The translations under genes were made by a program, and so were the position numbers. DNA of 51,724 nt from a bacterium. Its GTDB lineage: Bacteria > Patescibacteriota > Minisyncoccia > CAIUEV01. Positions 43,032 through 51,581 of the stretch are shown piece by piece (the first letter of the stretch is position 1; every line of letters begins with the position of its first letter). The notes below the pieces were generated by a model, which did no database searches, was not told the origin of the DNA, and was given only the letters and a program-made list of their open reading frames with translations. Location: the NCBI GenBank assembly GCA_021779915.1, contig JAJXZR010000041.1, positions 399-52,122 on the forward strand. The letters are read 5' to 3'.

Positions 43032-43417
43032 GGGAGTGCGTAGATTTGATGGGAGTTAAGAAAATTGGATGCAAGCCGGGTTTGAGCACGTTACGCTCTA
43101 AAGGTTATTAAATGCCAACCTTACAAAGCTAAAGGATGGAATCGCCAGCTTATTTGGCGTTTCTACTCCAGCATTTGCAGTCGCCTAGCGCGATCGCCAT
43201 CGTTCCATCTTCCGCCTGATGAGAGGTAAAACGGTGTCATAAGTCAGGCTGGGAAAAAGTTTGCTCTTAACTTTTTCTAAGACTCAAAGAGCAGGGAACT
43301 TAGGAATTTTTGTTTAGTTTTTGGCCTTCTCGTTCCCCAAAGCAAAAAATTAGACTATGCTTGTAGTATCTGGTTTTTAAGGCTTACCAGACGTCGGTGC
43401 AACTCCGGCCACTTCCA
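43032..43417 (+). ncRNA. ssrA: Transfer-messenger RNA (tmRNA)
   Basis: Rescues stalled ribosomes. The alanyl tRNA-like part pairs GGGAGTG (43032-43038) with CACTTCC (43410-43416); the third pair is G-U, the alanine identity element. The 3' half has GACTATGCTTGTAGTATCTG and the T-arm GTCGG-TGCAACT-CCGGC. The tag reading frame starts at GCC (43114) and ends at TAG (43186): 24 codons, beginning ANLTKLKDG and ending PAFAVA. Two oddities: the tag is long and ends in AVA instead of the usual LAA, and the T-loop has G where U55 is expected. The CCA end is not encoded. infC lies downstream on the same strand. Confidence 0.95.
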
Positions 43418-43436
43418 CAAAAATTTCGCTTCGCTC

Positions 43437-44992: not shown

Positions 44993-45016
44993 GTATACAC
45001 GAAAAAATTTTCTTAG

Positions 45017-45088
45017 TACCGCTACGGGGAATCGAACCCCGGTTGCTGGAATGAGAATCCAGCGTCCTAACCTCTAGACGATAGCGGC
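45017..45088 (-). tRNA. tRNA-Glu (anticodon CTC)
   Basis: Acceptor GCCGCTA / TAGCGGT, anticodon stem CTGGA / TCCAG with loop TTCTCAT, T-arm CCGGGGTTCGATTCCCC. CCA not encoded. Second glutamate isoacceptor in the window, opposite strand to the first. Confidence 0.93.
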
Positions 45089-47141: not shown

Positions 47142-48854
47142 ATGAAAAAATGGTCTGTTCGCCCCAAAGCCAATTCAAAATATTACGCCCAATTTCCTGA
47201 TATTTCAAAAACAATCCTAGATCTCCTTTATTATCGCATACCTCGAACCAAAGAAGCTTTGGAGGAATTTTTTCATCCTGATTACGAAAAAGACGTCCAC
47301 GACCCCTTCATATTTTGCGACATGCAAAAAGCTGTCGCAAGGGTTTTTGAGGCTATTTCGCGCAAAGAAAAAATTGCCATTTTTGGTGACTATGACGTAG
47401 ACGGGATCACTAGTTCCAATGTTTTGTGGAGTACTTTGTCTGAGCTAGGAGCCAAGCTGGAAATCTACATCCCAGATAGAAAACAGGAAGGTTATGGTAT
47501 GAACAAAAATGCTCTAAAAATTCTTAAAGAAAAAAAAGTAAAGCTTATTCTCACTGTTGATTGCGGAATAAGAGATCTCAAGGAAGCCGAACAAGCGAAG
47601 AAAATAGGAATTGATCTTATTATTACCGACCACCATTTACCAGGAGAAATTTTGCCAGAGGCTTTCGCTATTATAAATCCAAAAGTAAAAGGAGAAAAAT
47701 ATCCTTTTAAAGAACTAGCTGGGGTCGGAGTAGCTTTTAAGTTTGCTTCAGCCATCATCAAAAAAGCTTCTCGAGGAAAATTTATCAAAGGGTATGAAAA
47801 GTGGCTTTTAGACCTGGTTGCCCTCGGGACAATCGCTGACATGGTTCCGCTCGTCGGGGAAAATCGAACACTAGTAAAATACGGTTTAATCGTTCTTAGT
47901 AAGACCAAAAGAGAAGGAATCAAAGCCATTTTCAACTCCGCTAAAGTACCTCTTTCTCCTTCGAGTCCACCCAATTCAAATCAAATTGGATTTTTCGTTG
48001 CTCCAAGACTCAATGCTGCTGGAAGAATGGATCACGCCAACAGCTCTTTTGAGTTGCTCCGCACCAAAATCACTAAAAAAGCCACCCAAATCGCTGAGGA
48101 ACTTGAAGAAAAAAACAGTCGTCGCCAACATCTGACGGACAAGATTGTCAAGGAAGTAGAGGCAAGGATAAACCTCAAAAACAAATTGGTTTTTGAAGGA
48201 GACGAATCATGGCCAGTAGGAATTTTGGGGCTGGTAGCCGGAAAAATCTGTGAAAAATACGCTCGCCCTGCCTTTATCTACCACATCAGCGGGGCAGGGA
48301 AGTGCCAAGGCTCGATTCGCAGTATCAAAGAGTTCAAAGTTGTAAAAAATCTGGAAGAAATCAAGGAATTACTCTCAAGTTTTGGAGGACACGACTTCGC
48401 CGGAGGATTCAGTTTTGACGCTTATAATAAGGAAAAAATTAAACGGAATCTCAACCGCCTCGCCGACCAGAAACTCAGGGAAGAAGATTTGATTTTGGAA
48501 ATTGAAATCGACAAACTAATCAAGCTTAAAGAGATTAACTGGGATCTCTACAACGAACTCAAAAAAATGGAACCCTTTGGAATGGGAAACGCCAGCCCAC
48601 TTTTCCTAGCCAAGGGAGTGGAACTTTTCCAGTGCAATATGGTCGGAAACGGTAACAAGCACCTAAAAATGTGGCTCAAGGAAGACGGCCAGATTTTCGA
48701 ATCCATCGCTTTTGGCAAAGGAGAAGAACACTCAAAACTCATTTCCAGACCTAACACTAAGGTGGATATTGTTTTTGAAATTTCCAGCGACGAATGGAAT
48801 GGGGAGAAGAAGTTGCAACTATATGTGAGAGATTTACGACTTTCATCGGAATAA
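47142..48854 (+). CDS. recJ: Single-stranded-DNA exonuclease RecJ
   Basis: 5'-3' exonuclease on single-stranded DNA in recombination and mismatch or excision repair. 570 residues. DHH domain: IAIFGDYDVDGITSSNVLW, LILTVDCGIRD, IDLIITDHHLPGEILPEA (DHH triad), VALGTIADMVPLVGENR, APRLNAAGRMDHANSSFELL; DHHA1 domain: LVAGKICEKYARPAFIY, and SFGGHDFAGGFSF; C-terminal OB fold. All metal ligands appear present. It joins uvrABC and ruvX as DNA-repair content. Preceded by hairpin R13, no Shine-Dalgarno sequence. Confidence 0.96.
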   Translation: MKKWSVRPKANSKYYAQFPDISKTILDLLYYRIPRTKEALEEFFHPDYEKDVHDPFIFCDMQKAVARVFEAISRKEKIAIFGDYDVDGITSSNVLWSTLSELGAKLEIYIPDRKQEGYGMNKNALKILKEKKVKLILTVDCGIRDLKEAEQAKKIGIDLIITDHHLPGEILPEAFAIINPKVKGEKYPFKELAGVGVAFKFASAIIKKASRGKFIKGYEKWLLDLVALGTIADMVPLVGENRTLVKYGLIVLSKTKREGIKAIFNSAKVPLSPSSPPNSNQIGFFVAPRLNAAGRMDHANSSFELLRTKITKKATQIAEELEEKNSRRQHLTDKIVKEVEARINLKNKLVFEGDESWPVGILGLVAGKICEKYARPAFIYHISGAGKCQGSIRSIKEFKVVKNLEEIKELLSSFGGHDFAGGFSFDAYNKEKIKRNLNRLADQKLREEDLILEIEIDKLIKLKEINWDLYNELKKMEPFGMGNASPLFLAKGVELFQCNMVGNGNKHLKMWLKEDGQIFESIAFGKGEEHSKLISRPNTKVDIVFEISSDEWNGEKKLQLYVRDLRLSSE

Positions 48855-48862
48855 AGTACAAC

Positions 48863-49096
48863 GTGTCATCCCCGGCGTGTCGACCGGGGATCCAGGACTA
48901 ATCAGGCGTAAATGACAAATGTCAAATGACTAATGACGAATCAAATCCAAATTCCAAAGATTTAAAATATTTTGATTTTTGAATTTTGTCATTGATTTGA
49001 CATTCGTCATTGGAAATTTGTCATTAAATTATTAATTCTCCTGGATCCCCGGTCAAGTTTACCCCATACCGAATAGTTTGGGGCCCGGGACGACAC
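48863..49096. repeat. Family A repeat R14 with a family B repeat nested inside
   Basis: Outer arms GTGTCATCCCCGGCGTGTCG..GGATCCAGG / TTCTCCTGGATCCCCGGTCA..GGGCCCGGGACGACAC. Inside is a complete family B unit: AATGACAAATGTCAAATGAC .. ATTTAAAATATTTTGATTTT .. GACATTCGTCATTGG. The right tip carries the CCCCATACCGAATAGTTTGG module that forms the loop of R9. Confidence 0.9.
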
Positions 49097-49154
49097 ACTC
49101 TTCGCTTTCATAACTTTCCAAACCTTCTAAACTAATATTGTACGACACTCTCTC

Positions 49155-49183
49155 TTGACAACATTTGCTTCTTGTGATAGAAC
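49155..49183 (+). promoter_or_regulatory. Promoter of the large structured RNA
   Basis: TTGACA at 49155-49160, 17-base spacer, TAGAAC at 49178-49183 preceded by TGA (extended -10). Transcription expected from about 49190. Confidence 0.6.
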
Positions 49184-49383
49184 TCTCTGGCAATAAGGTT
49201 GGATTATTTATTGGGAGGTTGTTGTGAGAAGTCGTCTGAGTGTCCGGAAAAAAATCATTCAGAAGAACCGAAAGAAAAACTTTAATAACCACCGCCAGAC
49301 AGAGACATCAGAGTCTCTCGTCAGCAAGACCCCTTTTCGTCCAAGAATAAAAGATTCGGACGAAGAATAAAGGAGACGAGAAA

Positions 49384-49419
49384 ATGAGAGTATTTTTTCG
49401 ACATCCATATCCACCTTAA
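49384..49419 (+). CDS. Possible 11-residue peptide with Shine-Dalgarno sequence
   Basis: ATG AGA GTA .. CCT TAA encodes MRVFFRHPYPP. AAGGAG (49370-49375) lies 8 bases before the ATG, in a genome region where most genes lack such a site. A hairpin TTCGTCC / GGACGAA precedes it. It could be a leader peptide of the structured RNA or chance. Confidence 0.3.
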   Translation: MRVFFRHPYPP

Positions 49420-49852
49420 GAACTTTAAAACTATTATTCCAGGGAGCAAGACACTTTTATATTTAAAAGAATCGGGTTGTCTATATTTAAAAACGATTGA
49501 ATGATTAAGAAACGATTGAAAGAGTACTTTAAAAAAAGGACGTAACGCAAAGTCTTGCCTCCCTTGGTGAACAATCCTGAGAATCCCAAATATACTTAAG
49601 CACTTTCAGGGAGCGGATTGTTCACTTTACAAGGAACAGGTCTAAAGAGAGAAGCATCGGCACAGGCGCCCAATAAACAATCACATAAGTGGTTTGAATC
49701 GGTGCCACAAGCGGGGCACGACAATTATAAGAGAGATTATATTCCTCTTTTCGTGCTCAAGCGCCCGCTCTCCGCCTGTTCCTTCCAAAATCGCAGGGGT
49801 TCTGTGCCAAATATATTGTTCTTCGGCATCGCGAGAACCCCAACCCAATCCC

Positions 49853-49882
49853 AGCTCGGCTAAACTTAGTCGAGCTTTTTTG
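49853..49882 (+). terminator. Intrinsic terminator of the large structured RNA
   Basis: AGCTCG-G-CTAA / TTAG-T-CGAGCT followed by TTTTTT. Confidence 0.88.
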
Positions 49883-49903
49883 TTTGTCAAAAAGCCAAAA
49901 TAC

Positions 49904-49931
49904 TTGACAAAATATAGAAAAGTGGTATTTT
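49904..49931 (+). promoter_or_regulatory. Promoter of the small structured RNA
   Basis: TTGACA at 49904-49909, 16-base spacer, TATTTT at 49926-49931 preceded by TGG. The same layout, down to TTGACAAAAT, as the promoter at 14350. Confidence 0.7.
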
Positions 49932-50062
49932 CAAGGGGTTATAGTACATTATATAGAAAGATTATTGACTAAGGGAAAGGACTACTCCTGTTAATTCTGT
50001 TGTTTGAAAAACAAAAAATTTTCCGGAAGATCTTCAAAAAGACTTCCAAACAGGAGAAACTA

Positions 50063-50092
50063 ATGTTTTTCCCAAGAGCCCCTACTAAATAG
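50063..50092 (+). CDS. Possible 9-residue peptide in the small RNA
   Basis: Encodes MFFPRAPTK, with AGGAG (50052-50056) 6 bases before the ATG. That site is base-paired in the predicted fold, so translation would depend on opening the stem. The stop overlaps a short hairpin. Confidence 0.3.
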   Translation: MFFPRAPTK

Positions 50093-50130
50093 TAGCCCCC
50101 CCCTAATCAACCAAATTTTTCGCCCAACCA

Positions 50131-50164
50131 AAAAGCCATACTACTTTCAGTATGGCTTTTTTTA
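50131..50164 (+). terminator. Intrinsic terminator of the small structured RNA
   Basis: AAAAGCCATACT / AGTATGGCTTTT around ACTTTC, then TTTAATT. Confidence 0.9.
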
Positions 50165-50230
50165 ATTGTTGAATGTTTATCTACATAATTGTGTTACTTT
50201 ATTAAAGGCACTCTCAAACAAGTCCCTCTT

Positions 50231-50372
50231 GTGTCATCCCGGGCTTGACCCGGGATCCAGTTGGACTAATGGAATGTTATTTATGTGTGTTTTATTAAGA
50301 AACTAAACATAATAACGTTTTATCAGACTAATATTATCCTCCTAGATCCCGGCTCGGGGATCGGGATGACAC
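50231..50372. repeat. Family A modular inverted repeat, copy R15 (short-core type)
   Basis: Arms GTGTCATCCCGGGCTTGACC..GATCCAG / CTCCTAGATCCCGGCTCGGG..GGGATGACAC. Core GTTGGACTAATGGAATGTTA..TTAAGAAACTAAACATAAT..ATCAGACTAAT, nearly that of R3. Confidence 0.88.
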
Positions 50373-50858
50373 TATAATCCTATGTCTTTCTGTTTAAAAA
50401 ATTACAAAATTAGGATTTATTTATAAAATTATAAAAATTAAAAATTACAAAATTTATATCTAATATTAGCTCCAATAGGGAATATCCAGCCATATTTTTC
50501 GATTTTTAGATCGACTAACTTAGTAAAAACCATCTAAAATAGCGGGTTTTTTATATTATTGCTCGATCAGAAGGAGAAATCCGAAAGGGAAACGATTTTT
50601 CTAGGGAAGTGGCAAAAATCTTTTTTCAAAGAGAGGGAACAATAAAAATGAAGGAATAGAGAGAGTTTTGGGGAAATGAAAAGTTTAGAAAATATAAAAA
50701 TGGATAGGGGAGCGGATGAGATTTACGATTTAGAATTTAAGATTTAAGAAAAAAGAGTCCCGCCTTCGCCATAGGCTACGGCGAGGTGAAAGGGAACTAA
50801 ATACGTAGTGTCGCACAAGGTATCTTATGCGACTATATATAAGGGAAGAAGGGGAAGA
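50373..50858. other. Gene-free stretch
   Basis: No ORF with coding character and no clear promoter-terminator pair. AT-rich at the start, purine-rich in the middle (50570-50740). It contains one copy of the CCGCCTTCG..CTACGGCG module (50760-50784) and GTGTCGCAC..TGCGAC (50809-50834), a remnant of the GTGTCGCC core type; GTGTCGCAC recurs at 51136. Confidence 0.5.
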
Positions 50859-50973
50859 AATGACGAATGTCTAATGACGAATGCCAAATCAATGGCAAAG
50901 TTCAAAAATCAAAATATTTTAAATTTTTGGATTTTGGATTTGATTCGTCATTAGTCATTCGTCATTTGACATT
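50859..50973. repeat. Family B inverted repeat
   Basis: AATGACGAATGTCTAATGACG on the left, CAATGGCAAAG, AAAATATTTTAAATTTTTGG, then GATTCGTCATTAGTCATTCG on the right. Core nearly identical to the copy at 7669-7814. Confidence 0.88.
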
Positions 50974-50983
50974 GATAACCAAT

Positions 50984-51038
50984 TTTCCTGGATCCTCACT
51001 GGAGTTTATCCTCGTGAAAACGGGAACAAGGATAACAC
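50984..51038. repeat. Family A remnant, copy R16
   Basis: Only a right arm (TTTCCTGGATCCTCACTGGA) and a degenerate hairpin TTATCCTCG..GGATAACACG remain, directly beside the family B copy. Confidence 0.6.
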
Positions 51039-51212
51039 GTTGATAAATTTGATAAGAGCAAATAAATATTTTCTTAATTCTTAAATCATAAATCTTAAAT
51101 CCTAATTCCCCCCTTTCCCAATCCTCTCCCACATCAGTGTCGCACAATATATATTAGTTGTAAGAGAAAAGCCTGCCTGCCCGTAGGCAAGGTAAAAAGT
51201 TAAAAGAACACT

Positions 51213-51244
51213 AAAAAAGGAGCGAGAAAACCCCGCCCCTTTTT
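51213..51244 (-). terminator. Intrinsic terminator of groES
   Basis: Minus-strand stem AAAAAGGGGCG / CGCTCCTTTTT around GGGTTTTCT, followed by a T-run; about 60 bases after the groES stop. Confidence 0.8.
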
Positions 51245-51305
51245 GTCATTTAGATTTTGTCATTGTTTTGTCATTCGTCATTAGACATTCGTCATTCTCA
51301 ATCAT

Positions 51306-51581
51306 CTATTCCTCTATCTTCCCCAAAATATCCTCCGCCTTCAGAATCAAGTATTCCTCGTCGCTCACTTTCACTTCGGTTCCGCCGTATTTGGCAAATA
51401 TAATCTTGTCTCCAGCAGTCACTTTGATTTTTTCATCATCTCCGCAAGCGATCACTTCTCCAATCTGCGGTTTTTCATCACTAGCGGTATCCGGCAAAAC
51501 GATTCCTGATTCCGTAGTCTTTTCTTGCTTTCTCACTTGGACCAAAACATTGTCCCCTAGTGGTTTGATTTTGATGGACAT
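51306..51581 (-). CDS. groES: Co-chaperonin GroES
   Basis: Lid of the GroEL chamber. 91 residues: [44 protein letters not shown] (mobile loop region GIVLPD), [38 protein letters not shown]. Normal length. In most bacteria groEL follows directly; here a terminator and repeats follow, so groES stands alone in this window. Upstream of its start is a 9-mer array. No CIRCE element seen in the visible 140 bases. Confidence 0.97.

Follow-up and report, generated by a model that had tools for sequence, protein, structure and literature searches.

We identified a predicted RNA unit of about 690 nt (unit 1, 49190-49885, forward strand) which we read, tentatively and at somewhat less than even confidence, as a stand-alone structured RNA with mini-ORFs behind masked SD sequences and as a candidate dual-function regulatory RNA. 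The unit lies in the window, a 51,724-nt stretch of a 1.1-Mb assembly of Candidatus Moraniibacteriota type (G000 in the family comparisons), in the gap between recJ (47142-48854, + strand) and the convergent groES (51306-51581, - strand). The predicted unit, its folding above chance, its family-wide position, the enrichment of SD plus start codon on one strand and a mini-ORF common to two relatives can all be read from the sequence. Should it be transcribed, Patescibacteria would have in it a candidate for a large RNA of the dual-function kind.

Signals and fold of the predicted RNA

Unit 1 is preceded by a predicted promoter (49155-49183) consisting of TTGACA (49155-49160), a 17-nt spacer and TAGAAC (49178-49183) with TG before the -10 box, and it ends in an intrinsic terminator (49853-49884) found by terminator prediction and by pair probability. 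Both the extended -10 promoter and the strong terminator proposed in the initial annotation were thus recovered. Folded as RNA, 49190-49885 has a minimum free energy of -209.7 kcal/mol versus -160.0 ± 7.9 kcal/mol for shuffled sequences (z -6.3; z -7.3 with 40 shuffles), which bears out the heavily paired unit described there. The segment 49559-49885 alone reaches z -6.35, with none of 100 shuffles as good, and the + strand of the unit folds slightly better than the - strand (-210 vs -200). The same annotation had held the pairing density to be special. Density alone is no proof here, because dispersed palindromic repeats in the gap fold equally strongly (both strands, per 250 nt: z -9.7 at 48855-49104, z -8.8 at 50130-50379 and z -7.4 at 50730-50979); what stands is that the unit beats its shuffles and that its pairing, in contrast to that of the repeats, is long-range and non-palindromic. 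The repeats, at 48860-49100, 50230-50375 and 50870-50965, are of the types gtcatccc...gggatccag and gacattcgtcatt and form strong folds on both strands.

The helices listed for unit 1 all reach 0.84 or more in mean pair probability. Domain I (49194-49418) is closed by TAAGGT-GGAT/ATCC-ACCTTA (49194-49204/49409-49418; pair probability 0.84-0.88), and a short hairpin is formed by 49377-49386/49391-49400. Domain II (49441-49564; z -3.3) is built on the helix AGGGAG-CAAGAC/GTCTTG-CTCCCT (49441-49452/49552-49564; pair probability 0.88-1.0) and is followed by hairpin III (49566-49626), predicted from pair probability, with the 12-bp stem GGTGAACAATCC/GGATTGTTCACT (49566-49577/49615-49626). The second half of the unit holds domain IV (49631-49784; z -5.7), a multibranched element with the closing helix AAGGAACAGG/CCTGTTCCTT (49631-49641/49774-49784) and a further helix at 49714-49721/49751-49758, then hairpin V (49796-49841; GGGGTTCT-GTGCC/GGCAT-AGAACCCC, 49796-49808/49825-49841), likewise from pair probability, and the terminator stem (49853-49862/49867-49876). 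Directly 3' of unit 1 lies a shorter structured RNA of the same design, unit 2 (49938-50165; z -6.2), with its own predicted promoter (49904-49931; TTGACA-16-TATTTT, the same as that of unit 3 in the relative G002), its own SD-led mini-ORF and, at its end, a predicted terminator (50130-50161).

Searches of the window with the Rfam 15 covariance models gave no match in the unit at the gathering score, GOLLD, ROOL and OLE included, which places the unit outside the Rfam 15 families; at E<=5, the matches over 48800-51400 were chance matches, mostly of miRNA models on the dispersed palindromes. The GOLLD, ROOL and OLE models likewise gave no match in the loci of the relatives at E<=1. The unit resembles these RNAs, the function of the first two of which is unknown (PMC12286853), in size range, high pairing and intergenic position, and differs from them in having mini-ORFs and in lacking an Rfam match and a phage or tRNA-island context. 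The initial annotation had seen none of the GOLLD or ROOL context, and we agree: the neighbours are recJ and groES, the nearest tRNA is at 45016-45088 and phage matches are at chance level. Its comparison with large ornate RNAs in the sense of GOLLD, ROOL and OLE finds no support, since those rest on conserved, covarying structure and the helices of the window are unrecognised in relatives. Other known RNAs were considered and rejected. RNase P is located elsewhere in the genome (C4), and the tmRNA is at 43032-43420; tmRNA is similar in combining structured RNA with a short ORF, whereas the unit has mini-ORFs with SDs and ARAGORN found no tRNA-like domain in it. A T-loop-like GUUUGAAUC in domain IV is not embedded in a tRNA-like fold, nor did ARAGORN detect one there.

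The locus in related genomes

Three same-family relatives were compared with the source genome: G001 (JAJYBC010000001), G002 (VGKB01000051) and G003 (CAIUEV010000097). A counterpart lies 3' of recJ, in the same direction, in all four family genomes, each consisting of a TTGACA promoter and a strongly folded unit of 570-700 nt and, where the contig extends far enough, a terminator. The promoters of the relatives are TTGACA-16-TAGAAG with a preceding TG (G003), TTGACA-17-TAAAAG (G001) and TTGACA-16-TATTTT (G002). The order recJ, unit and convergent groES is found in G000, G001 and G003, in which recJ and groES are on one contig; in G002 the unit follows recJ, the two genes are on separate short contigs and a contig end falls inside the gap. 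Compared with shuffles, the G003 unit (651 nt) folds at z -8.75, the G001 unit (589 nt) at z -4.8 and unit 3 of G002 (566 nt) at z -3.5, although the contig end cuts the last one off. The order-level Moranbacteria lack such a unit; there, other genes come immediately after recJ, or the gap behind it is short. The G002 gap holds two further folded segments besides unit 3 (L039 1851-2235 and 2256-2835), which have terminator-like ends and separate recJ from unit 3; in the first of them, a strong SD stands ahead of a 68-codon frame. In G003, the stretch from recJ to the RNA unit contains two short genes on the minus strand (L037 1818-2475), whose resemblance to toxin-antitoxin genes is one of appearance only.

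Sequence similarity between these units is slight. BLASTN of the locus against 55 relatives and phages gave chance-level matches, two of which were checked and fall within ordinary genes, and pairwise DNA alignments of the units across the family are marginal at most. A covariance model of domain IV (R1) found only itself in 37 genomes, the three same-family ones included, and a model built from G002 and G003 (R2) found only the second G003 copy and missed the window. There are two local resemblances between family units: the 8-bp core GGAACAGG/CCTGTTCC of domain IV, which recurs in the corresponding 3' domain of G002 (L039 3288-3432), and an SD-mini-ORF segment common to G002 and G003. The family comparison comprises four sequences, too few for a covariation test. 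Because sequence and individual helices are not common to the relatives, we infer homology from place and architecture. As judged from these alignments and folds, the locus is conserved and its predicted RNAs are strongly folded but different, with a sequence that changes very fast. The comparison of homologous regions proposed earlier thus came out divided, locus and strong folding being kept and the helices of the window not being recognised. What persists despite the turnover is the locus, the size of the unit, how strongly it folds, its promoter and terminator, and its mini-ORFs behind SDs. The usual discovery of large RNA classes seeks conserved structure and would overlook such an RNA, since sequence and helices turn over here.

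Mini-ORFs behind SD sequences

SD-led mini-ORFs were defined as GGAGG, AGGAG or GGGAG, 3-10 nt, ATG and 4-40 codons. In the seven units, whose boundaries for this count were drawn by hand, eight were found on the RNA (+) strand and none on the - strand (shuffle mean 0.38; none of 500 shuffles reached this number); with the recJ-to-dif gaps included, the counts were nine and none, with 0.8 expected and a shuffle maximum of 4. The count was not blind, as mini-ORFs had been spotted by eye beforehand; even so, the strand asymmetry and the shuffles together argue strongly for SD-led mini-ORFs. The region, called gene-free in the initial annotation, is therefore not plainly ORF-free. In unit 1, AGGAG (49371-49375, + strand) precedes a mini-ORF at 49384-49419 (MRVFFRHPYPP*), the start codon of which lies within the hairpin 49377-49400; the SD is 32% unpaired and the start codon 9%. 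In unit 2, AGGAG precedes a mini-ORF at 50063-50092 (MFFPRAPTK*; SD and frame together 50052-50092, + strand), and this SD is able to pair with the upstream CTCCTGTT. An SD-like GGGAGG (49213-49218, + strand) stands 5 nt ahead of a GTG-started 48-codon frame (49224-49370), the stop of which adjoins the next SD; its codon usage is like that of non-coding sequence (-0.27 bits/codon vs 0.09 ± 0.12 for genes). SD sites are on average about 20% unpaired, compared with 36-43% for whole units, a difference that is suggestive only, because strong folds hide many sequences anyway.

A mini-ORF of the form M-x-F-x(1-2)-S-G-F-[TL]-stop is common to G002 and G003, which belong to two genera, and the peptides encoded in their gaps would be MNFRCSGFT, MKFPSGFT and MRFPSGFL. 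In 384 genomes of the class, GGAG-ATG-x-F..G-F-x-stop occurs only in the G003 gap (two sites), in the G002 gap and in two isolated matches. The three frames differ in length by three bases, in frame, and their changes include the third bases of F, S and T codons, which is compatible with a translated peptide. The mini-ORF sequences of the window and of G001 have no clear match to those of G002 and G003, and the pattern was not found in viral contigs. A search for paralogues in the source genome with GGAGG-RTGARA returned ordinary genes or isolated sites, and CsrB-like GGA arrays were rejected as an explanation, GGA being weakly enriched (77 vs 64.7 ± 5.6).

The mini-ORFs are the most notable feature of the units, since SDs are rare in ordinary genes and those of the units have below-average accessibility. 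The four genomes provided 69 ORFs that are 150 aa or longer, and an SD pentamer precedes the first ATG in 2 of these 69 (0 of 27 in G000 and 1 of 33 in G001), compared with 7 of 69 in an upstream control; the figure is approximate, as the first ATG was taken as the start. As a few genes of the genome do have GGAGG before their start, SD use is rare rather than absent. The 16S rRNA of G001, G002 and G003 ends in AATCACCTCCTTTCT, and the anti-SD tail CACCTCCTTTCT is intact in these three. The unit, if transcribed, would make it testable why these bacteria retain a perfect anti-SD that their genes hardly use. In the source genome, 16S rRNA was matched in pieces (L171/L174, G000:C6) that lie further apart than the model positions call for, and it is cut short by the contig end; an insertion in this rRNA is possible.

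In the reading that we prefer, a predicted transcript of about 690 nt would contain one or two frames of about 7-12 codons, every one of them led by a strong, partly buried SD. Ribosomes would gain access to a mini-ORF only upon opening of the masking hairpin, and translation, stalling or the short peptide itself might then switch the fold of the remaining RNA. The refolded RNA, or released 3' domains, could have other RNAs or the ribosome as target, in the manner of RNAIII. RNAIII of Staphylococcus aureus, SgrS and VcdRP (PMC8672173) are long folded stand-alone RNAs with promoter, terminator and a short SD-led ORF, and the unit would be like them if it is transcribed and its mini-ORFs are translated; it differs in its peptides of about 7-12 aa, often two per RNA, in having no sequence relation to them and in occurring in an SD-poor lineage. 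The erm, cat and trp leaders would share the mini-ORF, the masked SD and the switching RNA. Unlike these attenuators, the unit closes with a terminator; it is followed by the second terminator at 50130-50161 and then by the convergent groES, with no downstream gene on the same strand, and a leader-peptide attenuator was rejected on this ground.

The dif-like site and alternative readings

Besides the mini-ORFs, the initial annotation had missed a dif-like site in the same gap, GTGTCGCACAA-GGTATC-TTATGCGACTA (50808-50835, + strand), which is single-copy and differs by 0-1 mismatch over 26 bp among G000, G001 and G003. Each of these three genomes has a single copy of GTGTCGCACAAGGTATCTTATGCGAC (at 50808 in the window), confined to the recJ/groES gap; the sequence is absent from the 20 further genomes examined, among them G002, which is incomplete at the gap. 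The site is nearly identical across three genera, amid gap sequence that cannot be aligned. It is an imperfect palindrome of the 11-6-11 form expected of dif, one per chromosome, and with a single Xer-type recombinase in G000 (one is present in G003 as well) this makes 50808-50835 a candidate chromosome-dimer-resolution site of this Patescibacteria family. Agreement with known dif sequences does not exceed 18-20 of 28 positions, barely above noise, and GC skew has no clean switch at the site in G001 and a weak change in G003. Searches of the literature collection consulted, on RNAs and dif of Patescibacteria or Moranbacteria, found nothing. One arm of the site recurs, inverted, at a distance of 6 nt ahead of the -35 box of unit 1 (GTGTCGTACAA, 49138-49148, - strand) and, in the opposite orientation to that copy, at 51137-51147 (GTGTCGCACAA, + strand). 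Further copies of the motif are at L037 2548 and 3984, L038 4688 and L039 2841, and in the four genomes each unit-1-type promoter is preceded by one at a distance of 6-52 nt.

Other readings of the units have to be weighed against the one preferred here. A purely noncoding RNA that binds protein or ribosomes, a decoy or scaffold whose GGAGG pairs with the 16S anti-SD or binds a protein while the ATGs are incidental, is rather unlikely. It would agree with the non-coding look of the 48-codon frame, with near-perfect anti-SD complements such as that in G002 (AAAAAGGAGGTGAG, -18.1 kcal/mol), with the number of complementary sites at or below -9 kcal/mol in the units (22 vs 13.5 ± 3.1 in shuffles) and with the ribosome pull-downs reported for GOLLD (PMC12286853). 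However, weak sites of this kind are about equally many on the - strand (21), the enrichment of SD plus ATG at start spacing far exceeds that of SD-like sites by themselves, and G002 and G003 have kept a peptide-like pattern in common. We regard it as very unlikely that the unit is a type I toxin mRNA, or an operon for small proteins whose UTRs are long and structured. Type I toxin mRNAs typically have masked SD sites, and the 48-codon GTG frame, placed 5 nt after GGGAGG with its stop adjoining the next SD, would suit a small protein, but this frame is not conserved, has no Pfam match and has non-coding codon usage, the peptides are not hydrophobic and no antisense RNA was seen. Chance folding of AT-rich intergenic DNA with a fortuitous promoter and terminator, to which the other palindromic repeats of the gap and the lack of conserved helices in relatives might point, is highly improbable given z values of -5 to -9 at the same place in three family genomes and the strand-specific enrichment of SD plus start.

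It is also unlikely that the units are mobile or relic cargo which exploits Xer, with the gap as landing site at dif and Xer-arm motifs as boundaries, an origin that would account for the fast turnover and the non-host translation signals. The single-copy dif-like site within the gap, the inverse arm motifs on both sides and just upstream of each unit's promoter, the insertion of two short genes on the minus strand and of genes of efflux type into the gap (G003 and G001) and the one Xer-type recombinase in G000 and G003 are consistent with it. However, no recombinase, replication or capsid gene lies between the sites, the outer sites are single-armed, the motif elsewhere is also found inside genes, viral contigs gave no match and phage matches are at chance level, and the unit, far from being sporadic, keeps its position in 4/4 family genomes. 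Distinctly doubtful, too, is a more far-reaching proposal, that of a novel class of structured RNAs which evolve very fast and are linked to the chromosome-dimer-resolution locus in one family of Patescibacteria, and whose SD-led mini-ORFs would recruit ribosomes and couple the state of translation to the fold or to the terminus region.

The arm GTGTCGYAYAA is present in 4-13 copies per family genome and in 0-1 copies in order relatives. Its orientation flips across the dif-like site within the gap, and elsewhere it is mostly antisense to open frames. It is possibly a polar terminus motif (fork-trap or KOPS-like) that has the dif arm in common.
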